Source: Carboxylicivirga caseinilyticus (GTDB taxonomy: Bacteria; Bacteroidota; Bacteroidia; Bacteroidales; Marinilabiliaceae). From it: a stretch of DNA of 64,000 nt. The notes below the pieces were generated by a model. It did not search any database. It was given only the letters and a program-made list of their open reading frames with translations, and had not been told where the DNA came from. Both the position numbers and the translations under genes were made by a program. The stretch spans positions 1 to 64,000 of the forward strand of contig JAFMVE010000011.1 in assembly GCA_025499705.1 (NCBI GenBank), written 5' to 3'. Below are positions 4,364 through 43,207 of the stretch, one piece after another (the first letter of the stretch is position 1; each line of letters starts with the position of its first letter).

Positions 4364-5266
4364 TTGAAGAAATTACCATACATATTACCATATTATCATG
4401 TTGTAAGTGATCAGCACTTGCCACATATAAAGCATTTGTTTTATGTGAAGTCTGTTCGGGAGTTTATTGATGATCTGGAATATATCGGTAAGAATTACTC
4501 TATTGTTGGCTTAACTGATTTTTATCAAGCAGCAAAAGAAAGATTTATTAATATTAAGAAACCTATTGCACATCTGACATTTGATGATGGATTAAGTGAA
4601 TGCTATAATGTTATTGCTCCAATCTTAAAAAGTAAAGGCATTCAGGCTACATTCTTTATTAATTCAGGTTTTATTGATAACAAGGACCTGTTTTTTCGTT
4701 TCAAAGTATCTCTACTTATTGATGATTTATTATCCAAAGGTAAATTAACCAGAGAATTAGAAGTGCAATTAAAGGATTACCTATATTCAGATAATGAAGT
4801 GATTGATAGACTTGCTCAAGACAATGGGGTTGATTATAATGAATTTTTGAAAAGTAATAAGCCTTATTTAACCAGCGATCAAATTCAGTCATTAATAGAG
4901 GATGGATTTACTATTGGTGCACATAGTCATGATCATCCCGAATTCAGGTTTGTTTCAGAAGATTTTGCTCTCAATCAGGTGGTAAAAAGTGTTGATGAAG
5001 TGTCCTCACGTTTTAATCAAAATATAAAGGCATTCTCGTTTCCTTTTACAGATTTTGCATTAAAAAAAGAGTTTTTCAATAGACTTTATAAAAGTGAGAT
5101 AATCGATATCAGCTTTGGTACTGCAGGCATAAAAAAGGATGAAATAGCAATGAATTTTCAGAGGGTGCCAATGGAATTCAAGTATAAAGCGAAAAGTATT
5201 ATTGGTTATTATAATTTAAAATCCAAAATGAGACAGCTTCTTGGCAAGGATCTGATTTTAAGATAA
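4364..5266 (+). CDS. Polysaccharide deacetylase family protein (NodB homology)
   Basis: A 300-residue protein of carbohydrate esterase 4 type. The NodB motifs are TFDDG (residues 72-76, catalytic base and metal Asp) and HSxxH (H187, H191, metal ligands). The family removes N-acetyl groups from amino sugars or peptidoglycan. No signal peptide is visible, so cytoplasmic action on a lipid-linked sugar is possible. The start is TTG at 4364, with a G-rich stretch 5-10 nt upstream. A 40-residue insertion between the motifs is longer than in minimal NodB enzymes. It is the first gene of the tight cassette and ends 2 nt before the next gene. A free amino sugar from this enzyme could be the acceptor for the acyltransferases downstream. 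Confidence 0.85.
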   Translation: MKKLPYILPYYHVVSDQHLPHIKHLFYVKSVREFIDDLEYIGKNYSIVGLTDFYQAAKERFINIKKPIAHLTFDDGLSECYNVIAPILKSKGIQATFFINSGFIDNKDLFFRFKVSLLIDDLLSKGKLTRELEVQLKDYLYSDNEVIDRLAQDNGVDYNEFLKSNKPYLTSDQIQSLIEDGFTIGAHSHDHPEFRFVSEDFALNQVVKSVDEVSSRFNQNIKAFSFPFTDFALKKEFFNRLYKSEIIDISFGTAGIKKDEIAMNFQRVPMEFKYKAKSIIGYYNLKSKMRQLLGKDLILR

Positions 5267-5268
5267 GA

Positions 5269-6216
5269 ATGAGAGAAATAAAATTAGAGGAAAATAAGAT
5301 ATTGCACTTAAAAAGAAGTGAAATTGAGGATCAAAAGTGGGATGATTGCGTTACGAACTCTTCTTTTGATAATCCTTTGGCTTATTGTTGGGTTTTGGAT
5401 ATTATGTATCCAAAATGGGAAGCCATTGTAGACAGTGAATATAAATGGGTATTGCCAATAACAGCAATAAAATTTTTAAAATGGAAATTTATATCTCTTC
5501 CTAATTATGTACAATATTTGGGTTTTATTGGAAGTTCATCGGGTGAGGAATTTAAAAGTATTTTATCATGCCTGAAGAGGGAGTTAGGTTTGGTGTTTGT
5601 TACTTTTGGTCAGACACCTGGTATAAATGATAATTTAATAGCAGAATCTTATTTGAGGACAACATATCATCTTAATCTGAATCAATCTTACGAAGACATT
5701 AAATCTAATTATTCAAGCAGCTGTAAGAAAAATATTAGAAGAGGGTGTAGGGAAAATGTTCAGATTAGCATAAGTGATTCGTCTGATGAACTTATACAGT
5801 TAAAGTCTGAAATGGTGAAATTTAAAGGACTGGATAGAATTTCAGATATTAGTAATTCGAGATTAAAAGAATTGATAAGTGTTGCTATAAAATTTAAAAA
5901 AGGAGTTTTATATAAAGCTGAGGTGAGTGATAAATTGTGTGCGAGTGCTTTTTTTATATTTGGTGCGAGAGGGGTTAATATTTTTTCTGCAACAAACAGT
6001 TTGGGACGATCATCAAAAGCTTCATTTTTATTAGTAGATAATTTTTTACACGAATATTGTAAGAAAGATTTATATCTTGATTTTTGTGGATCAGATATTA
6101 AAAGTATTGCAGATTTTAATTCAGGATTCGGGGCTGTTCCATTATCTTATACAGCTTATAAAATATCCAAGAACACAATGTCATATTATATATGGAGGAT
6201 ACTGGTCAATATATAA
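5269..6216 (+). CDS. FemAB/GNAT-like acyltransferase
   Basis: A 315-residue soluble protein. The central segment YEDIKSNYSSSCKKNIRRG, followed by alternating strands and helices and the C-terminal LYLDFCGSDIKSIADFNSGFG, matches the GNAT-fold pattern of FemAB-like and BcsL/CelD-type acyltransferases. FemAB proteins transfer aminoacyl groups to peptidoglycan precursors, and related proteins acylate polysaccharides. Here it precedes an adenylation enzyme and a carrier protein, so it could take its acyl group from the carrier; this is inference. It starts 2 nt after the deacetylase stop and overlaps the next gene by 25 nt. Confidence 0.65.
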   Translation: MREIKLEENKILHLKRSEIEDQKWDDCVTNSSFDNPLAYCWVLDIMYPKWEAIVDSEYKWVLPITAIKFLKWKFISLPNYVQYLGFIGSSSGEEFKSILSCLKRELGLVFVTFGQTPGINDNLIAESYLRTTYHLNLNQSYEDIKSNYSSSCKKNIRRGCRENVQISISDSSDELIQLKSEMVKFKGLDRISDISNSRLKELISVAIKFKKGVLYKAEVSDKLCASAFFIFGARGVNIFSATNSLGRSSKASFLLVDNFLHEYCKKDLYLDFCGSDIKSIADFNSGFGAVPLSYTAYKISKNTMSYYIWRILVNI

Positions 6217-7691
6217 ATTTTCTCAATAAGATAAGGGATTCATTTAGGCTTTATCCTGATAGAAATGCGCTATATATTGGAGGTCGTTTCTATTCTTTTA
6301 AAGAATTGGAAAGGCAGGTTGGCACTATCTGTGACTATTTGTTGACTAATTGTGTTGATAGCAAGGCAATTGGAGTTGTTGGGAATCATGATTTAAAGAG
6401 TTATGCCTCAATTCTGGCAATTATGTTCTTAGGTAAAACATTTATTCCAATTTTAAATGATGCCCCTGAAATAAGAAATGAATACATCCTGAATCTTTGT
6501 AATGTAAATGTTGTGTTAAACTCCCGGGATACAGACTTAACACAATATGATATTCTTACACCAGATTCAATGGTGGACAGGGTTGTTATTCCGGAATTAA
6601 TCATCAATCAGGAGGATATATTGTCTGTGTTATTTACTTCCGGAACCACAGGAGTCCCTAAAGGAGTGCCTTACACATTTAAGAATATTAATTGTACTCT
6701 GGATGCCTATTTTAAGCTGGGTATGGGTATTGGAATTGAAGACAAATTCTTGCAGATGTTTGACTTTAATTTTGATATGTCCATGTTGTCGTATTTGCCG
6801 GCTTTTTGCATTGGAGCTTGCATTTATCCTTGTAAAAATAGTAGTATTAAGTATTTAAATGCTTTAGAATTGTTATTAAGGCATGAGATCTCAATTGCCA
6901 CTATGGTCCCCACAACATTACATCTATTGAGGCCATATTTTGAAAGGCTTCAATTGCCTAATCTAAAATATAGTTTATTGGGTGGAGAACCTTTTTCACA
7001 GGAGCTTGCTAATCAATGGATGAAATGTATACCCAATGGAAAGGTATTTAATATATCCGGACCGACAGAAACAACCATGGCATGCATGGGATACTGGGTT
7101 CCTAGAGAATTGGAGAGGCAGCAGCAGCATAATGGGATTCTGGCATTTGGTTTACCTTGGCCAAATACACGAGGTATAATTGTGGACTCTCAGAATAAAG
7201 AATTGCCAAAGTTTAAAAAAGGGAATTTGTCATTTTCCGGTGATAATGTTATGCAGGGATATTTAAATCAGGAAGAGCTAAATAAAGAGGTGTTTTTTTA
7301 TAAAGAAGGAAAGAGATTTTATAAAACAGGAGATATTGCTTTTATTGGTGAGGATGATACCTTTTATACTTGCGGGAGGTCTGATAATCAGGTTAAAATT
7401 AATGGATACAAGGTGGAGTTAAGCGAGGTTGAACATGCCTGCAGAACCTATCTTAAACTATCTAATGTCTATGTCGCTGTAATGAATTCAGGATCTATTG
7501 TAAATCGTATTGTAGTTTTTTATGAATCATCGGTTTTATTGAATTCAGATAAGCTAATCTCAGTATTGAGAGAAAAATTACCGCCATATATGGTGCCACA
7601 AAAGTTTGTATGCGTCAAAGAGTTTCCAAGGAATAATAATGGAAAAATTGATAAACAAGGTTTAAAAGAAAGTCTGCTTAATGAATCATAA
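6192..7691 (+). CDS. Stand-alone amino-acid adenylation enzyme (NRPS A-domain/DltA-like)
   Basis: A 499-residue ANL-superfamily AMP-forming ligase. Core motifs are in order: FTSGTTGVPKG (A3, 148-158), FDMS (A4, D195), GPTETT (A5, 290-295), YKTGD (A7, 377-381), GRSDNQVKINGYKVEL (A8, 395-410) and NGKID (A10, K485). D195 and K485 correspond to the residues that hold the amino and carboxyl groups of an alpha-amino acid in NRPS A-domains, so an amino acid substrate is likely. It has no condensation or carrier domain; the carrier is encoded two genes downstream, as with DltA and DltC. It overlaps both neighbours (25 nt upstream, 11 nt downstream), suggesting translational coupling. Confidence 0.9.
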   Translation: MEDTGQYINFLNKIRDSFRLYPDRNALYIGGRFYSFKELERQVGTICDYLLTNCVDSKAIGVVGNHDLKSYASILAIMFLGKTFIPILNDAPEIRNEYILNLCNVNVVLNSRDTDLTQYDILTPDSMVDRVVIPELIINQEDILSVLFTSGTTGVPKGVPYTFKNINCTLDAYFKLGMGIGIEDKFLQMFDFNFDMSMLSYLPAFCIGACIYPCKNSSIKYLNALELLLRHEISIATMVPTTLHLLRPYFERLQLPNLKYSLLGGEPFSQELANQWMKCIPNGKVFNISGPTETTMACMGYWVPRELERQQQHNGILAFGLPWPNTRGIIVDSQNKELPKFKKGNLSFSGDNVMQGYLNQEELNKEVFFYKEGKRFYKTGDIAFIGEDDTFYTCGRSDNQVKINGYKVELSEVEHACRTYLKLSNVYVAVMNSGSIVNRIVVFYESSVLLNSDKLISVLREKLPPYMVPQKFVCVKEFPRNNNGKIDKQGLKESLLNES

Positions 7692-8400
7692 TGTGTTAAA
7701 TAGAGACAATCTTCAATCATTTTATAATAGAGCTCTTTCATTAAAAGAACGGTTTGTAAACTATCAGGAAATCTGTTTTCCGGGTGATAACTTGCATGCA
7801 TGGCCGCAATTTATATATGGTTTTTCAGAAGATACTTTTCGTGTGGAGGAAAGACTCATGCAGGTACTGGAAAAAGTAGAATTCCCGGCATATGTTATAA
7901 TTGATTCTGAACATAAAGAGGTACTGGATTCTTTAAGATCCTTGGGTTTTATGCCTGTTGAAATATGGCCGATGATGTATCTTAACATTAGTGATTTTAA
8001 CAAGGATCTACAGGAAAATATGCTTACAGATTACGACTCTCAGATTTTAGCATTAATAAATGAAACTCATTTTGCAAAACAACCACTTGAAGAAGAATAT
8101 TTCAAGTATTTGCTTGGTTTAGAAGGATGTATGGTTTTTGGTATGTACGATGCAGATAAAGTGGTTGCAGCTTGTTTGACATTCAAGCAAGATTCTAATC
8201 TTGGTATTTACATGATGTCAACCAATAATAATTATAGAGGAAAAGGATGGGGGCGCAAGTTACTTCATAATATTATCTCGGATTGTAAAACAAAGCAAAT
8301 TCAATCATTAACTTTACAAGCAAATCAGTTGTCAGTTGGATTCTACAAAAAAATAGGATTCTCCATAACTGGTAATTATTTAATCTTTGTAAAGAAATAA
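7681..8400 (+). CDS. GNAT family acetyltransferase with an N-terminal extension
   Basis: A 239-residue protein. The C-terminal half (about 110-239) is a GNAT domain: LTFKQDSNLGIYMMST forms the central strand, YRGKGWGRKLL (about 185-194) is motif A, which binds acyl-CoA pyrophosphate, and LQANQLSVGFYKKIGF is motif B. The N-terminal 110 residues are not recognised. The donor may be acyl-CoA or, given the ACP gene 6 nt downstream, a carrier-bound acyl group; the latter is inference. It begins inside the end of the adenylation gene. Confidence 0.82.
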   Translation: MNHNVLNRDNLQSFYNRALSLKERFVNYQEICFPGDNLHAWPQFIYGFSEDTFRVEERLMQVLEKVEFPAYVIIDSEHKEVLDSLRSLGFMPVEIWPMMYLNISDFNKDLQENMLTDYDSQILALINETHFAKQPLEEEYFKYLLGLEGCMVFGMYDADKVVAACLTFKQDSNLGIYMMSTNNNYRGKGWGRKLLHNIISDCKTKQIQSLTLQANQLSVGFYKKIGFSITGNYLIFVKK

Positions 8401-8406
8401 CTACAT

Positions 8407-8640
8407 ATGGACAAAATAGAAGGTGAAATTATAGCTATTGTAGCCGGTATTTTGAAAGTAAATCAATCAGATCTTCAACTAGAATCGTCAGGGGATTCTA
8501 TTCATCAATGGGATTCATTGGCTCACGCTTCGATTATTTCAGCAGTTGAGGAATATTTTGATATAAAATTTGACGTGATGGATATCATTCAGATGAGAAC
8601 CATTGATGATATTATCAATACCGTCAAAAAAGTATCGTAA
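8407..8640 (+). CDS. Acyl carrier protein / peptidyl carrier protein
   Basis: A 77-residue acidic four-helix carrier protein. S37 in the QWDSLAH motif is the expected 4'-phosphopantetheine attachment site. The WDSL form is typical of carriers in surface-glycan and Dlt-like clusters rather than of fatty-acid ACP (which has DSLD). It is likely loaded by the adenylation enzyme at 6192. No phosphopantetheinyl transferase lies in the window, so a housekeeping one must act. The next gene starts directly after its stop codon, with no spacing. Confidence 0.92.
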   Translation: MDKIEGEIIAIVAGILKVNQSDLQLESSGDSIHQWDSLAHASIISAVEEYFDIKFDVMDIIQMRTIDDIINTVKKVS

Positions 8641-9681
8641 ATGAAATTTATTAACGTAAAGAATGGTGAAATACTATCTTTTTTAGAACAGTATAAAAAG
8701 GAGGATAGGTCTGTTTTGCCAATTTCGACTTTACGAGCAAATTCATTTTATAATAATCCAAAAGCATCTAATGAAGATGTTGTTCTGGTTTTGGCATACA
8801 AGAATGATCAATTAGTTGGGTTTATTGGTTTTTTACCAGATTATTTGCAAGGTGATCCAACGAAAAAATTTGCATGGAACAGTGGTTGGTGGATTGATGA
8901 AAATAAAGGTAGAGATATAGCCATCCCATTACTTCTTTATGGAATGAAACAATGGAATAATATGGTTGGCTTTATCGATCTACCTTACCATTCGTTTAAT
9001 ATACTTAATACTTTACGGTTAATTGATGTATTGGGGGTGGATAGTGGCGTTAAATATGTGCTAAGACCCTATCTCCCAAATAGTAATGTACTGCAGTGCT
9101 TTTTTAGTTTATTACCGGGTATTATTCCGTCATGGTTGCTAAATAGTAAAGTAGATACAAGCTTTTCTTTAGTAAGAGAATTGACAAATGATATGGAGTA
9201 TTTTATCGCAGAAAACCAGAAGAATACATTTGCGAAAGATAGAAATGATTTTGAGTGGATTAAAAATTTTCCATGGTTATCAACACAGGATAATTACATA
9301 AATGAGCAAAAGAAGTATCCATTCAGTTTAGTTACTTCGTCATTTTGTTTAAATTATTTTAAAATAGAAATAAACAAAGAGGTAGTATCAGTTGGTCTTA
9401 TCAAGGAAAGAGATGGACATTATTATTTACCTTTCCTTTATTTGAATGAAAAGTATATAAAATCTGTTCTAATTGATATTGTTAGTCATATCATAAAAAG
9501 TGGAGGGTTGAGTTTATATATTTATAATTCGGTTTTTAATGAAGTTCTTGGTGAAACTGTTATAAAATATTTACCGCAAAAAGAAGTGTTTCAGAAAACG
9601 GCATTTACAAAGGATTTCATAAAGTTATGGGGTGCGCAGATTAATTGCCAGGATGGAGATGGGGATGCTGTTTTTGCTTAG
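8641..9681 (+). CDS. Uncharacterised GNAT-like protein
   Basis: A 346-residue soluble protein not recognised as a named family. The N-terminal part (about 45-130) looks like a GNAT core: VVLVLAYKNDQLVGFIGFLPD, then an SGWWIDENKGRDIAIPLLLYG segment where motif A would fall, though the usual RGxG is replaced by NKGRDIA. The C-terminal half has a similar strand-helix pattern (INKEVVSVGLIKE), so it may be a tandem GNAT. It directly abuts the ACP gene and precedes the flippase, so a role in the same acylation pathway is likely. Function is not assigned. Confidence 0.6.
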   Translation: MKFINVKNGEILSFLEQYKKEDRSVLPISTLRANSFYNNPKASNEDVVLVLAYKNDQLVGFIGFLPDYLQGDPTKKFAWNSGWWIDENKGRDIAIPLLLYGMKQWNNMVGFIDLPYHSFNILNTLRLIDVLGVDSGVKYVLRPYLPNSNVLQCFFSLLPGIIPSWLLNSKVDTSFSLVRELTNDMEYFIAENQKNTFAKDRNDFEWIKNFPWLSTQDNYINEQKKYPFSLVTSSFCLNYFKIEINKEVVSVGLIKERDGHYYLPFLYLNEKYIKSVLIDIVSHIIKSGGLSLYIYNSVFNEVLGETVIKYLPQKEVFQKTAFTKDFIKLWGAQINCQDGDGDAVFA

Positions 9682-9701
9682 GAGGTGTTAAATATCTTGT
9701 T

Positions 9702-10961
9702 ATGCTTGGAAACAGAATAAAAAAAATATTTATATTATATAGAGGTAATATAGTTGCACAAGCATTAAACTTAGTTGTTTTTTTTGGAGCAACATACTAT
9801 TTTCCTATTGATATAATTGGAACGTATTTTATTTTCGTTGCTATTGCTGAAATTTGTGGATCCTTCTTTTCATTACAGTCCCATTTAACTATAGCGCTAG
9901 CTAATACTTTCAAAGATAAATATCAGAACTGGAAAGCAGGTTTTAACATTATTTTATTATTTCATGTTTTATTTATTGTTGGTATAATTATAATTTATTT
10001 TCTGCAAAGAAGCTTTTTCAGTGGAGTATTCGCATTTAAATTATGGTATTTTTTATTGCCTATCTCTTCTCTTTTTTTTGGAATGAATCAGTTAGGTGAA
10101 CATTATTTAATTGCTATTTATAGATATTCATTCGTTAGTAGATTAAAGTTTATAAGGGTTGTTTCTTTTAGTTCTGTTGTTTTAGTATTTATTTTAGAAC
10201 CCAATAGTATAAATGCACTTATATTAGGGTATTTGGTGGGGCAAATTACACAAGTTGTCGGGTATTATTTTTTGGCATATAGAAGATTATCAATAAAATT
10301 TTCAATTCTCGAAGTGAAAATTTTACTGATACAATTCTTTAATAAATACAAACACATTCTTATTCTTAATACAATAGTTTCACCTATAAATATTATTAGT
10401 AATCAATTGCCAGTAATATTGTTACCAATCTTGTATAGTAAAAGTGTAACTGCTAATTATGGAATTGTATTTAAAACCCTTCTTTTTCCGGTAATGTTAT
10501 TTTCTCAGGTCTATGGACAAGATATTTATGTGAAGGCGTCAAATATTTTTAATAAAAAGGAGCCATTATCCAATTTCTGGAAGTTAGAACTTCGAAAACT
10601 TTTTATCATTGCGATTATTCCATTTATCATAATATATCTAATAAGTCCATGGTTTTATGAAAAAGTAATGGGACAAGAATGGTTGTTAGCAGGTGATATT
10701 ACCAGAATCATATTAATTTGGATGTTTATCAATTTTATAAAAACACCATTAGCATCATTAATATCCATTTTACAATTACAGAAGAAATGGCTAGTATTTG
10801 AGGTTTTTCAATTAATTGGCAGATTATTAATCTTTTTTATTTCATATGTATTTACATTTAGTGTTCAGTATACATTAACTTTGTATGCTTTAATAAGCTC
10901 ATTTGCAGGAATAATTCTATTAATATATATATATTATTCAATTGGAAGGAAAGGATTTTAA
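9702..10961 (+). CDS. Polysaccharide flippase-like membrane protein (MOP/Wzx type)
   Basis: A 419-residue, very hydrophobic protein with about 12 predicted membrane segments, an N-terminal RIKKIFILYRGNIVAQALNLVVF helix and basic loops. This matches the MOP exporter superfamily, in which Wzx proteins flip undecaprenyl-linked oligosaccharides to the periplasm. I take the ATG at 9702; the open frame extends to 9645 but that part overlaps the previous gene and has no hydrophobic pattern. An AGGAGGT sequence lies at 9680-9686. The gene is especially AT-rich. It probably exports the modified glycan built by the upstream enzymes. No polymerase (Wzy) gene is seen nearby. Confidence 0.75.
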   Translation: MLGNRIKKIFILYRGNIVAQALNLVVFFGATYYFPIDIIGTYFIFVAIAEICGSFFSLQSHLTIALANTFKDKYQNWKAGFNIILLFHVLFIVGIIIIYFLQRSFFSGVFAFKLWYFLLPISSLFFGMNQLGEHYLIAIYRYSFVSRLKFIRVVSFSSVVLVFILEPNSINALILGYLVGQITQVVGYYFLAYRRLSIKFSILEVKILLIQFFNKYKHILILNTIVSPINIISNQLPVILLPILYSKSVTANYGIVFKTLLFPVMLFSQVYGQDIYVKASNIFNKKEPLSNFWKLELRKLFIIAIIPFIIIYLISPWFYEKVMGQEWLLAGDITRIILIWMFINFIKTPLASLISILQLQKKWLVFEVFQLIGRLLIFFISYVFTFSVQYTLTLYALISSFAGIILLIYIYYSIGRKGF

Positions 10962-11060
10962 ATTCCATAAATATTAAATGTAGAATTTTTCTAAAATATT
11001 TTTAAGTGAGAAAATGATCAGAAAAAGAGTTTTAAAAGTAGAAGGATTAGATTATTTACT

Positions 11061-11651
11061 ATGGGGTTTTTAAAGAAGTTACTCTTAAAAATTGATAATA
11101 CTTTTTTTCGTTGGTGTGTTCGAAAAATATACCCACAATACAAAAGACCTATCAACGGCTATCTGGAGCATTATAAGGTACTTTGGACCTATGTTTTTAT
11201 GCAAAAAGTATTGGGATTTAACAGAAAAGTGCCATGGCCGGTTGATTTTAGAAGTAGAATTATTGGCTGGGAGTTTATTGAAAAAGGTATAATCTGTGAT
11301 CCAGGAGATAATTTAGGAACATACATTAATGCATGTGGAGGTTTAAAATTTGGCGATAATGTTGAATTAGGTCCGAATATAACAATTGTTACGACCAATC
11401 ATTATAAGTATGATGTTAGAAAAACATCAAATAAAAAAGGAGTAATAATAGGTAATAATGTATGGATAGGTTCACATTGTGTGATCCTTCCAGGGGCGGT
11501 AATTGGTGATGAAGTAACAATTGGTGCAGGATGTGTAATAGATAAAGAGATACCCTCTAAATCAACTGTTGTGCGAGGAGATGATAGTATTAAGATTATA
11601 CCTAAGACCAAAGATTATGAGTGGGATATATATAAGGAAGAATTGACCTAA
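11061..11651 (+). CDS. Hexapeptide-repeat (LbH) O-acyltransferase
   Basis: A 196-residue protein. Residues about 85-185 form left-handed beta-helix hexapeptide repeats (FGDNVELGPNITIVT, then IIGNNVWIGSHCVILPGAVIGDEVTIGAG). The His in the TTNH segment is the likely catalytic base of the maltose/galactoside acetyltransferase class. It acetylates a sugar hydroxyl using acetyl-CoA. It follows the flippase after 99 bp and precedes upp by 10 bp. It is probably the last gene of the surface-glycan set. Acceptor unknown. Confidence 0.85.
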   Translation: MGFLKKLLLKIDNTFFRWCVRKIYPQYKRPINGYLEHYKVLWTYVFMQKVLGFNRKVPWPVDFRSRIIGWEFIEKGIICDPGDNLGTYINACGGLKFGDNVELGPNITIVTTNHYKYDVRKTSNKKGVIIGNNVWIGSHCVILPGAVIGDEVTIGAGCVIDKEIPSKSTVVRGDDSIKIIPKTKDYEWDIYKEELT

Positions 11652-37373: not shown

Positions 37374-38438
37374 TTGTCTGCTGGTTTTAATAAATTTGAG
37401 TTGCTCTATATCAAAGAGAAAATAAATCAAACCGATATAAATCGGATTATTAAGTATCAGCTTTTTCAATGCATAACTAGGAGAATAGTATTTTTTCTGT
37501 TATTTTGCGTTGCGACAAATGCTATTGGACAGCAATTTCCACAATTTAGTCAGAATATGTTTAATCAGCTGGCTACTAATCCCGGATTTGCTGGTAATAG
37601 CGAAATGATAAATGTTGCTATGGGTAACCGGCAACAATGGATGGGAGGATTTGATGGGATGGCTCCAAAAACAACGGTATTCGGAGCAGATGCAAAACTA
37701 AACATTTTGGGAGGAGATAGCGGATTGGGTCTGTTGATCTTAAATGATGAGATTGGCGAATGGACAAATTTGTACATGTCGGCAGTTTACTCGAAAAGAT
37801 GGAAAACAGATTACGGTAAGTTGGGAGTGGGTTTATCATTCGGAATGGTTAACCAATCAATCAAAGGAAGCAATCTTAGTACTTTACCTCAGGGAGATGC
37901 AAGTGATGATTTTGGTAATGGTGATTATCATACCGAAGAATCATTAACCGACGACCAGGGGACGGCTTTGGACATAGGTTTTGGAACATATCTGGAAAAC
38001 CGACTTTATTACATCGGAATTTCAGTTGCTCATTTAAATAAACCTGCCCCTAAGTTTAAAGATACTTATGAGTCATATTTATTACCAATAGTTTTTATCA
38101 CTGGAGGTTATAAATATCAGCTTAAAAACAGACCGATTGTACTTGTTCCGTCATTATTTATAAAAACGAATATGTCCAGTTATCAGGTTGATTTAAATGT
38201 TAACGGCATATTAAAAGATAAATATTGGGGAGGTTTAACGTATCGTTTTCAAGATGCTATCGTATTACTAGGTGGAGTTGAACTCAATAATGGTCTACGA
38301 ATTGGCTATAGTTACGATATAAATGTAACCCAAATGAGTTCCGCACGTAATGGTTCACACGAGATTATGTTAGGATATAGTTTTGATATGAGCCTGGAAA
38401 AAAGAAAGAAACAATATAAGAGTGTTAGATATTTATAG
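37374..38438 (+). CDS. porP: PorP/SprF family type IX secretion outer-membrane protein
   Basis: A beta-barrel outer-membrane partner of the T9SS and gliding machinery. The mature part starts QQFPQFSQNMFNQLATNPGF, the family hallmark, and continues with GNRQQWMGGFDG and alternating beta-strands to the end. A hydrophobic signal sequence (VFFLLFCVATNAIG) precedes it. No ATG lies in frame before the signal; possible starts are TTG at 37374 or TTG at 37401, so the N-terminus is uncertain. It is the first of five collinear T9SS genes, 34 nt before gldK. Confidence 0.88.
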   Translation: MSAGFNKFELLYIKEKINQTDINRIIKYQLFQCITRRIVFFLLFCVATNAIGQQFPQFSQNMFNQLATNPGFAGNSEMINVAMGNRQQWMGGFDGMAPKTTVFGADAKLNILGGDSGLGLLILNDEIGEWTNLYMSAVYSKRWKTDYGKLGVGLSFGMVNQSIKGSNLSTLPQGDASDDFGNGDYHTEESLTDDQGTALDIGFGTYLENRLYYIGISVAHLNKPAPKFKDTYESYLLPIVFITGGYKYQLKNRPIVLVPSLFIKTNMSSYQVDLNVNGILKDKYWGGLTYRFQDAIVLLGGVELNNGLRIGYSYDINVTQMSSARNGSHEIMLGYSFDMSLEKRKKQYKSVRYL

Positions 38439-38472
38439 AATATAAGTAAAGTAATTCAGATATAAGGCTATT

Positions 38473-39801
38473 ATGAAGAAAGTACTTGCCCTAAGTGTCA
38501 TTGTCATCACCATCCTTAGTGGATGCGGACAATCCGGAAATGGAGAATTGGTCGGAGTATCCCGAGGTGGCTCATTTTATGAACCAGATCCATTTGGTAT
38601 GTTGTTTATTCCTCAAGGGAGTTTTACAATGGGACCAAATGATATGGACGTTGCGAATACAATGAGTTCACAATCCAAAGTAGTTTCAATCCGTTCATTT
38701 TGGATGGATGAAACCGAAATAACCAATACTGAGTATCGTCAGTTTGTTTATTGGGTCAGAGATTCAATTGCCCGTAGATTATTGGGAGAACAATTTGAAG
38801 AATTTTTGATTGCTGAGGATTATTTGGGTAATGAAATTGATCCGCCATTTTTAAATTGGGATGAAGATGTTGAATGGGATAATGAAGAGTATGCTGAAAT
38901 TCTGGATGAAATGTATTTGCCTGAAAATGAACGATTTTATCGTAGAAAGGAAATTGATAGTCGTAAATTAATTTACGAGTATGAATGGGTAGATCTTTTG
39001 CAGGCAGCTAATAAGAGTAACCGCTATAACTTCGAGACAAAATCATATGAGGGTGTAGTGTATGATCAATTTGGAAAAGAGCGCGAAATTAAAGATCGTT
39101 CAGCCTTCATTATGAAAGATGCAGTTAATGTTTATCCTGATACTCTTTGTTGGATTGCAGACTTTACCTATTCTTTTAATGAGCCATGGACTGAAAAATA
39201 TTTCTGGCATCCTGGATTTGATGAATATCCTGTTGTTGGAGTAAACTGGAAGCAAGCGACAGCTTTTTGTATCTGGAGAACACAATTGCTGAATAATTAC
39301 TTAATGCATAAAGGAGAACCTCCTGTAATGAACTACAGACTTCCAACTGAAGCCGAGTGGGAGTATGCTGCAAGAGGTGGTCTGGAACATGCAATTTATC
39401 CTTGGGGCGGAATGTATACCAGAAATGACAAAGGATGTTTCCTTGCTAACTTCAAACCTCTTCGTGGACGTTATGGTGATGATGGTGGAATGCAGGCGAT
39501 TTCTGTAGGTTCATATTCTCCTAATGACTATGGTTTGTTCGATATGTCTGGAAATGTTGCTGAATGGACTTCAAGTGCATTTGATGAATCTTCATATACC
39601 TTTACACACGATTTTAACCCAACCTATAAGTATAACGCTTTACCAGATGATCCACATGTAATGAAACGTAAAGTAATACGCGGTGGTTCATGGAAGGATA
39701 TCGGTTTCTTCTTACAGAATGGGACACGTACTTATGAATATCAGGACTCAACAAAGTCTTACATTGGATTCAGATGTGTTCGTGATTATATTGGTGAGTA
39801 A
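38473..39801 (+). CDS. gldK: T9SS ring lipoprotein GldK/PorK
   Basis: A 442-residue outer-membrane lipoprotein; lipobox ILSGC gives acylated C18. The body is a formylglycine-generating-enzyme-like (SUMF1) fold: MLFIPQGSFTMG, MDETEITNTEYRQFV, YRLPTEAEWEYAARGG, YGLFDMSGNVAEWT and IRGGSW. In the T9SS, PorK/GldK forms the periplasmic ring with PorN/GldN. Gene order porP-gldK-gldL-gldM-gldN is the classic arrangement, which makes the assignment secure. Confidence 0.96.
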   Translation: MKKVLALSVIVITILSGCGQSGNGELVGVSRGGSFYEPDPFGMLFIPQGSFTMGPNDMDVANTMSSQSKVVSIRSFWMDETEITNTEYRQFVYWVRDSIARRLLGEQFEEFLIAEDYLGNEIDPPFLNWDEDVEWDNEEYAEILDEMYLPENERFYRRKEIDSRKLIYEYEWVDLLQAANKSNRYNFETKSYEGVVYDQFGKEREIKDRSAFIMKDAVNVYPDTLCWIADFTYSFNEPWTEKYFWHPGFDEYPVVGVNWKQATAFCIWRTQLLNNYLMHKGEPPVMNYRLPTEAEWEYAARGGLEHAIYPWGGMYTRNDKGCFLANFKPLRGRYGDDGGMQAISVGSYSPNDYGLFDMSGNVAEWTSSAFDESSYTFTHDFNPTYKYNALPDDPHVMKRKVIRGGSWKDIGFFLQNGTRTYEYQDSTKSYIGFRCVRDYIGE

Positions 39802-39845
39802 TCTCACATTATTTCTTTGGACGGAAAATTGAAAAAAAGGTCATT

Positions 39846-40724
39846 ATGAGTTTTACGGAATTTCTTGAAAGCCCTGGTTATAAAAAAATCATGGCTAAGG
39901 TATACGGAATTGGTGCTGCTGTTGTACTTGCCGGTGCTTTATTTAAAATCATGCATTACCCTGGAGCTGAGCTTATGCTGTTATTAGGAATGGGAACAGA
40001 AATTATTATTTTCACCTTATCAGCGTTTGAGCCACCACATGAAATGCCTGATTGGAGTCTTGTATATCCTGAGTTGGTTGGATTAGAACCAAATGACACA
40101 AAAGCAGGACATTCTGTAAGTGGCGGAGGAAGTGATCTGGCTGCTTTAGTACAGAGTGGCCATCTTGAACCGGCTGTTGTGGAGAAACTTTCAGAAGGTA
40201 TCAAAAAACTTTCAATGACATCTTCTCAGCTTTCAGACCTTAGTTCTGCTAGTTTGGCAACTGAGTCATACCTTCAAAATATGAAACAGGCTGGAGAGGC
40301 TGTTGGTCACTTAGCAAGTGTACAAACAAAAACAGCCACTACATTAGAAGATTCTGTAGGACAGCTTTCTGAGTCATATAAAAGTAGCGCTAAAGCAATT
40401 TCTGCATCCGGAATGAATATTCAACAACATTTCGATCAGTTAAACAGCAACAATAAAGAATACAGTGAGAAACTGGGTGATGTAACTAAAAACTTGTCTG
40501 CAATTAATTCTGCCTATGAGTTACAGTTACAGGGTCTTAATTCACAGGCTGAAGCATCGCAGGCTCTTACTAAGGGAATGACTTCTATCAAAGCTCAGTT
40601 TGAGCAATCAGCAGCTGATGCTCAGGTTTATAAAGAGCAGGTTGCTCAATTGAGTAAAACGGTATCTGAACTAAATACTATTTATGGCAACATGTTAAGT
40701 GCCATGAATGTAGGGAATAAGTAA
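39846..40724 (+). CDS. gldL: T9SS inner-membrane motor protein GldL/PorL
   Basis: A 292-residue protein with two N-terminal membrane helices (about 15-35 and 38-60), joined by the FKIMHYPGAE loop characteristic of GldL, and a long cytoplasmic coiled-coil region rich in Gln, Ser and Ala. GldL and GldM form the proton-driven rotary motor powering secretion and gliding. It starts 44 nt after gldK. Confidence 0.96.
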   Translation: MSFTEFLESPGYKKIMAKVYGIGAAVVLAGALFKIMHYPGAELMLLLGMGTEIIIFTLSAFEPPHEMPDWSLVYPELVGLEPNDTKAGHSVSGGGSDLAALVQSGHLEPAVVEKLSEGIKKLSMTSSQLSDLSSASLATESYLQNMKQAGEAVGHLASVQTKTATTLEDSVGQLSESYKSSAKAISASGMNIQQHFDQLNSNNKEYSEKLGDVTKNLSAINSAYELQLQGLNSQAEASQALTKGMTSIKAQFEQSAADAQVYKEQVAQLSKTVSELNTIYGNMLSAMNVGNK

Positions 40725-40758
40725 GGAACAGTATTAACGCTAATAAAATAGTTAGATT

Positions 40759-42330
40759 ATGAGTGGCGGAAACTGTCCCGAAACCCCCAGACAAAAGATG
40801 ATTGGAATGATGTACTTATTCCTTACGGCAATGCTTGCATTGAACGTATCGGGTGAGTTACTACAGGCATTCCAGTTGGTAGATAATAGTATTCAGCAAT
40901 CAACAAAAGCAGTTGATAATAAGAATAATCAGTTGTATGCTGCATTTGAGGCTGCAGAGTTTGCAAATCCGGCCAAGGTTAAAGATAACCATGAAAAGGC
41001 TCAACAAATCAGAGCTGCAGCTGATACTTTAAATAATAGCATTCAAGAATTAAAACTGTTAATGATGCGGACTGCTGATCCTAGTCCTGAAGCAACGCTT
41101 GAAAATTACAAAGGGATCGAAAATCAGGATATTGCAGCACAGATAATGATTACCGAAAAAGGTGGTCAACGCAGTGAAGAATTAAAGGAGAAAATTGTTG
41201 CTTATAAGGATTTATTGGTATCTCTTGTAGCTACTGAAGACACTGCCTTAATTCAAACAATTACCAATTCATTATCAACCGAAGATGTTGAAGAGAAGAA
41301 AAAAGGTGAAGTAACAAAGAAACCCTGGGAAAGTCAGCTATTTGAACATTTGCCATTATCAGCATCTTTTGCATTGTTAAGTAGTATACAAAGTAATGTT
41401 CGTTCTACCCAGGCGGATGTGGTTGCTTACTTACTTAGTAAGGTGGACGAAGGTTCATACAAATTTAACAAGGTAGAACAAATTGTTATTCCGCGATCTG
41501 ATGTAGTGATCAAAGGAGGGGAGTATTATGCTGAGATGTTAATTGCAGCTACCGATACATTGCAGCCTCCAACATATAGAATTGAAGGCCATAGTGCTGA
41601 AATTTTGGAAAATGGAAGAGGTGTTTTAAGAATTCCTGCTAATTCTATTGGAAAGAAAACATGGAGAGGTAATATTATCTTCAAGGATCCCAATGGTGTT
41701 GATAAGAGTTATCCAATATCACATGAATATGAAGTTGTTCAGCCTAATGTTGTGATTTCTCCAACAAAGATGAACGTATTTTATGAAGCGTTAGATAATC
41801 CTGTTGAGATCTCTGTTCCTGGTATAGCCAGTAGTCAAATAAGGATTTCAATGACGAATGCCAGTTATAATAAAAGAGGTAATGAATACATTGTTAAACC
41901 TCAGGCTGGTAAAGCAGGAGGGAAATCGATCATAACTGTTTCTGCAGATATAAATGGTCAGACCAGGAGGCTAGGGAGTCAGGAATTTCGTATAAAGCGT
42001 GTGCCTAATCCAATAGCAATGGTTGCAGGACTTGGTGATGGAGATAAAATAAGGAAAAACCTTTTGATAGCTGCCGGATATGTTACAGCAGAGATGGGTG
42101 AAGATTTTGATTTTGACTTAAAATTTAAAGTTACTCAGTTTTCTATAGGTACTTATCGTAAGGGATTCTATACAAACGAAGTTTCAAATAGTAACAAGTT
42201 TACAGAAGCGCAGGAAAATCTTTTAAAAGGTCTTGCTCCTGGAAATAAAGTATATATTGAAGACATTAGGGCTGTAGGACCTGATGGAAGAACACGTAAA
42301 TTAGGTTCGATTACATTTACGGTTGATTAA
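40759..42330 (+). CDS. gldM: T9SS motor/periplasmic shaft protein GldM/PorM
   Basis: A 523-residue protein with one N-terminal membrane helix (about 13-33; GMMYLFLTAMLALNVSGELL, with Tyr/Thr in the membrane) and a long periplasmic part made of a helical domain followed by Ig-like beta domains (about 220-523). It forms a dimeric shaft that spans from the GldL motor to the GldK/GldN ring. It starts 34 nt after gldL. Confidence 0.96.
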   Translation: MSGGNCPETPRQKMIGMMYLFLTAMLALNVSGELLQAFQLVDNSIQQSTKAVDNKNNQLYAAFEAAEFANPAKVKDNHEKAQQIRAAADTLNNSIQELKLLMMRTADPSPEATLENYKGIENQDIAAQIMITEKGGQRSEELKEKIVAYKDLLVSLVATEDTALIQTITNSLSTEDVEEKKKGEVTKKPWESQLFEHLPLSASFALLSSIQSNVRSTQADVVAYLLSKVDEGSYKFNKVEQIVIPRSDVVIKGGEYYAEMLIAATDTLQPPTYRIEGHSAEILENGRGVLRIPANSIGKKTWRGNIIFKDPNGVDKSYPISHEYEVVQPNVVISPTKMNVFYEALDNPVEISVPGIASSQIRISMTNASYNKRGNEYIVKPQAGKAGGKSIITVSADINGQTRRLGSQEFRIKRVPNPIAMVAGLGDGDKIRKNLLIAAGYVTAEMGEDFDFDLKFKVTQFSIGTYRKGFYTNEVSNSNKFTEAQENLLKGLAPGNKVYIEDIRAVGPDGRTRKLGSITFTVD

Positions 42331-42355
42331 TTTTAAAAATGAAAATTTATAGCAT

Positions 42356-43207
42356 ATGAAACGAATCATCTTAATCCTCGTTATTCTTGTTAGCTTTGGC
42401 AGCATTGATTTTATAAGTGCTCAACAAGTAAACAAAGAGTTGTATACCAAAGATCATGTGCCGAATCGGAAACCAATTCCGTATGCACATATCAGAGAAG
42501 CTGATGTACTTTGGGCAAAAAAGATATGGAGAGTAATTGATTTAAGAGAAAAAATCAACTTACCAATGTTTTATCCAACAACAAAAATGGATGATCGAAT
42601 GAGTCTTATTGATCTTTTGGTATATGGAATTACATATGAAGGTCTTACGGCTTACTCAACTAAATCTGATGATGAGTTTCAGGTGCCTTTAACTTTGGAT
42701 CAGGTATTGCGTGAGATGGGAGCTGTATCGGATACGATGGAAATCCAGAATCCTGAAACAGGCCTTTATGAAACTAAAGTGATAGAGGGTGAAGTTCGAT
42801 CAACAGAGTTTAAGCAAATCATGTTAAAAGAGATTTGGTTCTTTGACCGTAATTACTCAAGAATGGATGTTCGTATAGTTGGTATCTGTCCTATTCGTGA
42901 ATATGTAAAGGATAGTGATGATGGCGAAGGTCAGGTTGTTCAGTCTCAGGCTTTTTGGGTTTATTTCCCTGAAGCACGTGGTTTACTTGCTCGTCATGAG
43001 GTGTTTAACCCAAATAACGATGCACAAAGAAGAACATTTGATGATATTTTTATAAAGCGTTATTTCGGAAGTTATATTTACAGAGAATCAAACGTATATA
43101 ATAACCGACGTATTGAAGACTATACCGCAGGTATGGAGGCAATGATGGAATCAGAACGAATTAAAAGTGCAATGTTCGACTTAGAACATGATATGTGGGA
43201 ATTCTAA
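42356..43207 (+). CDS. gldN: T9SS ring protein GldN/PorN
   Basis: A 283-residue periplasmic protein with an N-terminal signal peptide (about 1-22). RPIPYAHIREADVLWAKKIWR-like segments (here with KPIPYAHIR) and the KEIWFFDRNYSRMDVRIVGICPI stretch are hallmarks of the family. It pairs with GldK in the ring complex under the outer membrane. It is the last gene of the operon, followed at 24 nt by a strong terminator. Confidence 0.96.
   Translation: MKRIILILVILVSFGSIDFISAQQVNKELYTKDHVPNRKPIPYAHIREADVLWAKKIWRVIDLREKINLPMFYPTTKMDDRMSLIDLLVYGITYEGLTAYSTKSDDEFQVPLTLDQVLREMGAVSDTMEIQNPETGLYETKVIEGEVRSTEFKQIMLKEIWFFDRNYSRMDVRIVGICPIREYVKDSDDGEGQVVQSQAFWVYFPEARGLLARHEVFNPNNDAQRRTFDDIFIKRYFGSYIYRESNVYNNRRIEDYTAGMEAMMESERIKSAMFDLEHDMWEF

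Follow-up and report, generated by a model that had tools for sequence, protein, structure and literature searches.

A recurring Bacteroidota gene set that may N-acylate surface glycans with an exchangeable amino-acid donor module

Introduction

How might a bacterium place an amino acid on a surface glycan when the activating enzyme and the carrier protein are encoded beside GNAT-fold transferases? The question is raised by a run of genes in Carboxylicivirga caseinilyticus at positions 4,364 to 11,651 of the window, by which we mean the whole stretch of DNA analysed (64,000 nucleotides, contig JAFMVE010000011.1). Eight genes, lettered A to H here and all on the plus strand, encode a polysaccharide deacetylase (A), a FemAB/FemX-like protein (B), a stand-alone adenylation enzyme (C), a GNAT (D), a carrier (E), a second GNAT-fold protein (F), a probable flippase (G) and an LbH (hexapeptide) protein (H). 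The original prediction, made from the letters alone, took them for one tight operon in which an amino acid is loaded on the carrier and moved by a GNAT-fold enzyme to a sugar amine exposed by the deacetylase, before the glycan is flipped out. All eight open reading frames (ORFs) are indeed open as it described.

We report that A to F are a real gene set, recurring across many Bacteroidota. With a little more confidence than doubt, we read it as a putative cassette for N-acylating surface glycans, in which the donor module is exchangeable.

Results

Six genes recur together in Bacteroidota

With the window protein as query, relatives of F were found in 21 of 149 genomes of the order; profile search found them in 53 of 393 genomes of the order. 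In a phylum sample they occurred in 5 of 395 genomes, the source genome counted in. A further 80 named loci, which are a sample, were kept from a genome collection searched with QDGDGDx[VA]F. The 139 loci including the window gave 139 F ORFs and, after duplicates were merged at 90% identity, 124 clusters; L106 and L111 were left out because the ORF caller gave no F ORF there. Neighbours were counted among genes within seven ORFs of F at these 124 distinct loci: A was present at 102, B at 52, C at 29, E at 28 and D at 25. G was found at four loci and H at one. G and H are local additions outside the conserved set, and the predicted flippase and LbH gene are no longer counted as parts of the system.

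At the 29 C-bearing loci the genes are closely packed. E was recovered in four more of them (L091, L124, L127, L128) by reading the DNA upstream of F, and with these it occurs together with C in 28 of the 29. D occurs with C in 24, or in 25 when L091 is added, where a single ORF of 759 amino acids (aa) combines C and D (L091:3847-6126) and E is also present. C-D-E-F is contiguous on one strand in 23 (20 by the ORF caller and three with recovered E), and A lies within seven ORFs in 24. The exact order B-A-C-D-E-F occurs at 13 loci (11 + 2), and the order in the window is A-B-C-D-E-F. Record titles of C-bearing loci name Prolixibacteraceae, Saprospiraceae, Chitinophagales, Vicingaceae, Flavobacteriaceae, Paludibacter and others. 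The conserved co-occurrence that the original prediction had proposed to look for is thus present. Its tight operon holds for A to F, where the gaps are, in order, 2, -25, -11, 6 and 0 bases; G and H are separated by 99 bases. A search of the open-access literature found no paper describing this exact set.

C-D-E is a plug-in at one chromosomal site

F is present without C at 95 of the 124 loci. A, B and F are the constant members of the set, and C-D-E plugs in between A and F. Of 14 hand-picked loci, 13 have RadC on the upstream side and 10 have Upp on the downstream side; the window has both flanks. This RadC ... Upp site carries B-A-F in some loci and B-A-C-D-E-F in others; within Mariniphaga, C-D-E is present at the same site in M. 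anaerophila (L128) and absent from it in M. sediminis (L159). Two loci without C pair A and F with other carrier systems: L035 has a carrier and an FkbH-like enzyme (PF21211, below cut-off), and L038 has a carrier, a KAS III-like enzyme and a B12-radical SAM protein. These loci fit the idea that A-F is an acceptor pair served by varied donors. F genes with a carrier and without C also occur at L037 and L027, and at L027 no loading partner was seen.

The arrangement bears on what the cassette makes. Instead of modifying a glycan, C-D-E-F could yield a small N-acyl amino compound or a lipid, in the manner of FeeM or, as a second example, OlsB. Carrier-dependent GNATs such as FeeM are known, according to the available part of one article (PMC6331615). 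We nevertheless hold a small-molecule product to be rather unlikely: 24 of the 29 C-bearing loci and 102 of the 124 F loci have a deacetylase gene within seven ORFs, and the plug-in is embedded in the constant B-A...F set.

F, rather than D, segregates with C-D-E

F (8641..9681) matches the Pfam GNAT model weakly (16.7 bits, below the cut-off). Its AlphaFold model has the two-lobed GNAT fold (predicted local distance difference test score, pLDDT, 90.8), and Foldseek matched it to VipF, a Clostridium acetobutylicum glucosamine N-acetyltransferase and N-myristoyltransferase (NMT). The label 'C present' was mapped on protein trees, and its changes were counted against 20 to 50 shuffles per tree; only F proteins of at least 300 aa were used, which excluded four of the 124. 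For the 49 B-bearing loci, the B tree gave 14 label changes (mean 16.3 and minimum 13 over 20 shuffles) and the F tree two (shuffled mean 16.7). For the 96 A-bearing loci, it changed 15 times on the A tree (shuffled mean 20.5, minimum 18) and four times on the F tree (shuffled mean 20.3). The tree of all 120 remaining F proteins gave four changes, or five when the columns of the coenzyme A (CoA) loop were removed (50 shuffles: mean 26.3, minimum 23). F follows C-D-E, whereas A follows it only slightly and B no more than by chance. The split between loci with and without C is not one of simple taxonomy, because Prolixibacteraceae, Saprospiraceae and Vicingaceae have F both with and without C.

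In GNATs the CoA pyrophosphate is held by Q/R-x-x-G-x-G/A, as stated in the available part of an article on the superfamily (PMC4964394). The loop of the window protein reads NKGRDIA, has a one-residue deletion and lacks the strict CoA P-loop. Two of the 124 F proteins have no letters at the loop and were not counted. Of the others, 26 of 29 from loci with C lack one or two residues there, versus 3 of 93 from loci without it, a contrast that Fisher values overstate because few evolutionary changes underlie it. The strict motif, with S allowed at the last position, was found in 2 of 29 versus 53 of 93. At L027, one of the three loci with the deletion and without C, a carrier gene adjoins F.

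The C terminus of F is also conserved. It reads QDGDGDAVFA in the window, and 108 of 117 full-length F proteins end exactly one residue past the Phe/Tyr of this motif (QDGDGDxVFT; window 9649-9681), as do 37 of 44 proteins from loci not selected by the motif. The invariance of QDGDGD in alignment A7 is partly by construction, as the motif was the query for some loci; the remaining F loci were found by whole protein or profile. According to the available part of the same article, a catalytic C-terminal carboxylate is unique to NMT within the GNAT superfamily (PMC4964394). That F may use its own C-terminal carboxylate in an NMT-like way is a lead only.

D (7681..8400), which matches Pfam GNAT, is predicted to be another two-lobed GNAT (AlphaFold, pLDDT 90.4). 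It keeps the CoA P-loop (RGKGWG), and [RQ]xxGx[GAS] is present in 24 of 25 members of its family. Its structural matches include MAB_4324, VipF, MshD, WecD, glycine N-acyltransferase (GLYAT) and the aminoacyl-tRNA-dependent Sba18/Sbb17. Might D, then, move the amino acid from E to the sugar, with F as an ordinary CoA-dependent N-acetyltransferase? D is nearly confined to C-bearing loci (24 of 25 D matches), F exists without C at most loci (95 of 124), and the fold of D resembles those of the Sba18/Sbb17 peptide synthases and MshD. However, C, E and F are directly adjacent at L133 and L136 with no D, so D is dispensable for transfer as such; moreover, C tracks F far more than A or B, and the altered CoA loop sits in F, not in D. 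Transfer by D is thus an unlikely arrangement in our estimation. Because F segregates with C-D-E and has the altered loop, F, not D, is likely the carrier-dependent transferase. The original prediction of a GNAT-fold transferase in place of DltB/DltD is retained and narrowed to F. For D, the CoA motif and the resemblance to MshD and glycine N-acyltransferase suggest that its likeliest role is probably N-acylation of the loaded amino acid.

C and E have the marks of amino acid activation

C (6192..7691) has an AMP-binding domain (167 bits) plus the C-terminal domain. D195 and K485, the Asp and Lys which in non-ribosomal peptide synthetase (NRPS) enzymes hold the alpha-amino and the carboxyl group of the amino acid, are invariant in 27 of 27 aligned enzymes, which bears out the predicted amino-acid-type adenylation enzyme. 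TIGR01733 is its best NCBIfam match, although at 248.2 bits the score lies below the cut-off of 317.4. The closest solved relatives are NRPS adenylation (A) domains, and DltA and 4oxi, which we take to be AlmE, also rank high. The pocket code in the window is DMLTLGIMAK, and pocket residues vary widely among family members; the pockets of L131, L132 and L147 resemble the serine code at 7 of 10 positions.

E (8407..8640) is a carrier protein by its PF00550 match (32.7 bits, cut-off 20.8) and its phosphopantetheine attachment serine, S37, in the motif WDSL. All 26 of the 26 carriers aligned have S37, among them those of L035 and L038, where the loading enzymes are different ones.

Two rival substrates or products were weighed against these data. 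C could load some carboxylate other than an amino acid, a reading that its weak match to the exosortase-associated acyl-CoA ligase model TIGR03098 may hint at. C scores 131 bits against this model, far short of its cut-off of 592, and the wide differences between C pockets would suit such a substrate. The invariant D195 and K485 argue otherwise, as do the solved relatives, which are best among amino-acid A domains with DltA high, and the top NCBIfam match to TIGR01733; we find a non-amino-acid substrate quite improbable. The other rival is the Dlt pathway itself, that is, D-alanine esterification of a surface polymer. C reaches 234 bits with the DltA model TIGR01734, but the equivalog cut-off is 559.85 bits, and no MBOAT or DltD gene was recognised among ORFs A to H, in line with the predicted lack of DltB/DltD partners. 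A Dlt pathway here is very improbable indeed.

A more Dlt-like arrangement than the cassette is found elsewhere in the same genome. Besides glycan-type genes, this cluster (L001, G000:C92:8000-27900) encodes two MBOAT proteins, a carrier and two more C-like enzymes (~34-35% identical). Next to these enzymes are two proteins of ~217 aa that resemble GNATs by eye and have no Pfam match.

A is a NodB-type deacetylase and B a FemX-like protein

A (4364..5266) belongs to the CE4/NodB-type deacetylases: it matches PF01522 at 66.6 bits (cut-off 23.1) and has TFDDG at residue 72 and HSHDH at residue 187. Among A-family matches of at least 280 aa, [ST][FY]DDG is present in 105 of 108 and H[ST]xxH in 93 of 108. 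Like the carrier, the deacetylase looks intact, which supports the original prediction. Inspection of A by eye revealed no obvious signal peptide.

B (5269..6216) gave no Pfam or NCBIfam match as a single sequence. A profile of 29 B proteins matched FemX (E 4.9e-5) and, more weakly, lipid II:glycine glycyltransferase (E 0.0067). The family is present in 161 of 198 genomes of the order. An ORF of ~440 aa often lies upstream of B, and its copy at L126 is a DUF7033 protein (Pfam). Relatives of the L126 protein are upstream of B in 30 of the 50 B genes that have a same-strand upstream ORF. No such ORF precedes B in the window, and a DUF7033 gene lies elsewhere in the same genome. B with a DUF7033-type ORF is a widespread pair, with an L126-type relative in 11 of 24 fetched B loci (L247, L249, L250, L253, L256-L260, L262, L264). 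B co-occurs with the PorU sortase, and the pair is a candidate linking-sugar pair.

The relation of B and F to type IX secretion

The window's genome encodes a PorU sortase (NF033707, 1217 bits, at G000:C123), and genes at 37374-43207 of the window resemble, by eye, a PorP/GldK-L-M-N block of the type IX secretion system (T9SS). B and PorU were both present in 151 of 198 genomes, B alone in 10, PorU alone in 22 and neither in 15 (odds ratio 10, with kinship uncorrected, and with the make-up of the set and some PorU-negative calls, G385 among them, inferred from hand-typed lists). At a stricter B threshold the four counts were 142, 6, 31 and 19 (odds ratio 14.5). This co-occurrence does not tie the cassette to the T9SS, because B exists mostly without C or F. 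A link through F is not supported on its own: PorU is present in 51 of 53 genomes with F versus 295 of 340 without it (Fisher p 0.065).

The window B has no match to the FemAB model TIGR03019, which 4 of 29 B members match. At L298 and L299, TIGR03019 FemAB genes lie beside WbpB-like genes and, in L299, also a WbpD-like gene (by eye); these are possible Vim-like loci in the order. The idea that B or F is a VimA orthologue is not supported: the nearest stand-ins for VimA (TIGR03019, L298/L299-type) reached 13 and 21 bits against the profile of B and were unmatched by that of F at E 10. B appears to be at most a remote FemAB relative of VimA. In the available part of a paper on Flavobacterium colony spreading, we found no link to B (PMC9950754).

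Local additions and surroundings of the cassette

G (9702..10961) is a probable polysaccharide exporter or flippase. It overlaps F if its annotated start, TTG 9645, is used; ATG 9702 is the likelier start. Neither Pfam nor the PDB gave a match to G as a single sequence. At L044, an ORF related to G (L044:7767-9062; phmmer 9e-16) lies next to another cassette and is Polysacc_synt_3 (PF13440, 78.6 bits), which makes the flippase label plausible. H (11061..11651) resembles LbH sugar O-acetyltransferases (PF00132, 45.4 bits). Promoter and terminator scans gave no signal above shuffled expectation. Three tRNA-Glu (ttc) genes are clustered around rpsT at 1730-2347.

Discussion

We propose that A would strip an N-acetyl group from a sugar, as its family suggests. 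From its family and invariant residues, C would adenylate an amino acid and load it on the phosphopantetheine of E at S37. D, an optional enzyme, would then make an acyl-CoA-dependent change to the loaded amino acid, most likely N-acylating its amine. F would take the aminoacyl group, modified or not, from E and join it by an amide bond to the sugar amine freed by A. B, a FemX-like protein, sits in the constant part and does not track C-D-E. In this scheme the reactions, the amino acid, the acceptor sugar and the export route are all inferred from comparative genomics.

Several observations weigh against it. The segregation of F with C-D-E reflects few evolutionary events, judged by 20-50 shuffles per tree, and the label 'C present' is somewhat clustered on the A tree too (15 changes, shuffled minimum 18). 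The changed loop of F is no proof of carrier use, because the strict CoA motif persists in F at L091 and L113, two loci with C and a carrier, 40 of 93 F proteins from loci without C lack it as well, and GNATs with atypical P-loops can still bind CoA, according to the available part of the article cited above (PMC4964394). C falls short of both the TIGR01733 and the DltA cut-offs. Its pocket is not decisive, the window code matching any of 19 reference codes at no more than 5 of 10 positions. Lastly, the sole glycan-type neighbour of the window cassette is one glycosyltransferase gene on the opposite strand.

The cassette resembles several known systems in part. With DltABCD it has in common a DltA/DltC-like activation and carrier step; DltABCD has DltB and DltD, neither of which was recognised in the cassette, which has a GNAT-fold transferase. 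The exosortase/XrtA-associated set, with FemAB, deacetylase, ligase and carrier, is alike in its kinds of genes. It differs in that C lies under the TIGR03098 cut-off and the window B lacks a TIGR03019 match. AlmEFG differs in its transferase, AlmG, which is not known to be a GNAT and modifies an acyl chain of lipid A; no deacetylase is known to belong to the system. AlmEFG glycylates lipid A, a Gram-negative surface glycolipid, and so has in common with the cassette an adenylation enzyme and carrier for an amino acid on a surface glycan or glycolipid, judging by the available part of its description (PMC12930378).

One precedent for the chemistry is the biosynthesis of SB-203208, with the adenylation enzyme SbzB, the carriers SbzG/SbzK and the GNATs SbzC/SbzI, where the available part of the report describes a demonstrated carrier-dependent aminoacyl transfer by GNATs (PMC6331615). 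Both rely, the cassette by our proposal, on a free-standing adenylation enzyme to load a carrier and on a GNAT-fold enzyme to move the acyl group off that carrier. The Sbz product is a secondary metabolite; the Bacteroidota cassette has two further components, a glycan-type deacetylase and another GNAT, which carries a CoA motif. Carrier-dependent aminoacyl transfer by GNATs is already known, and the cassette would be a variant of that kind. The Wbp/Vim system is a further precedent: VimE/VimA are proposed, with genetic support, to deacetylate a linking sugar and then transfer serine or glycine (PMC7468200, as far as available). Common to this system and the cassette would be a sugar N-deacetylase followed by addition of an amino acid to the freed amine, in Bacteroidota with a T9SS sortase; an adenylation enzyme and a carrier, both present in the cassette, are not mentioned in the available part of that article. 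In the wide sense, then, the claim that no such system had been described gives way to SB-203208 and VimE/VimA.

A link of the cassette to type IX secretion linking sugars is possible and weakly supported. A bolder version, which we regard as a long shot, would make B-A-F a Vim-like pathway producing an amino-acid sugar for sortase-mediated cargo coupling in the T9SS, with C-D-E choosing the amino acid and F being a GNAT branch moved from CoA to an aminoacyl carrier, with catalysis by an NMT-like C-terminal carboxylate.

Amino acids can alter the charge of surface glycans and how these are recognised; on the surface glycans of P. gingivalis and T. forsythia they form part of the anchor of secreted proteins, as described in the available part of the article on VimE/VimA (PMC7468200). 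Few activation routes for the amino acids of surface glycans have been worked out; in Prevotella intermedia, which has an N-alanyl linking sugar, the pathway of transfer is unknown according to the available part of the authors' report (PMC11969387). An exchangeable donor module would be a compact, testable route of this kind, and strains with and without the module at one site offer a natural comparison.

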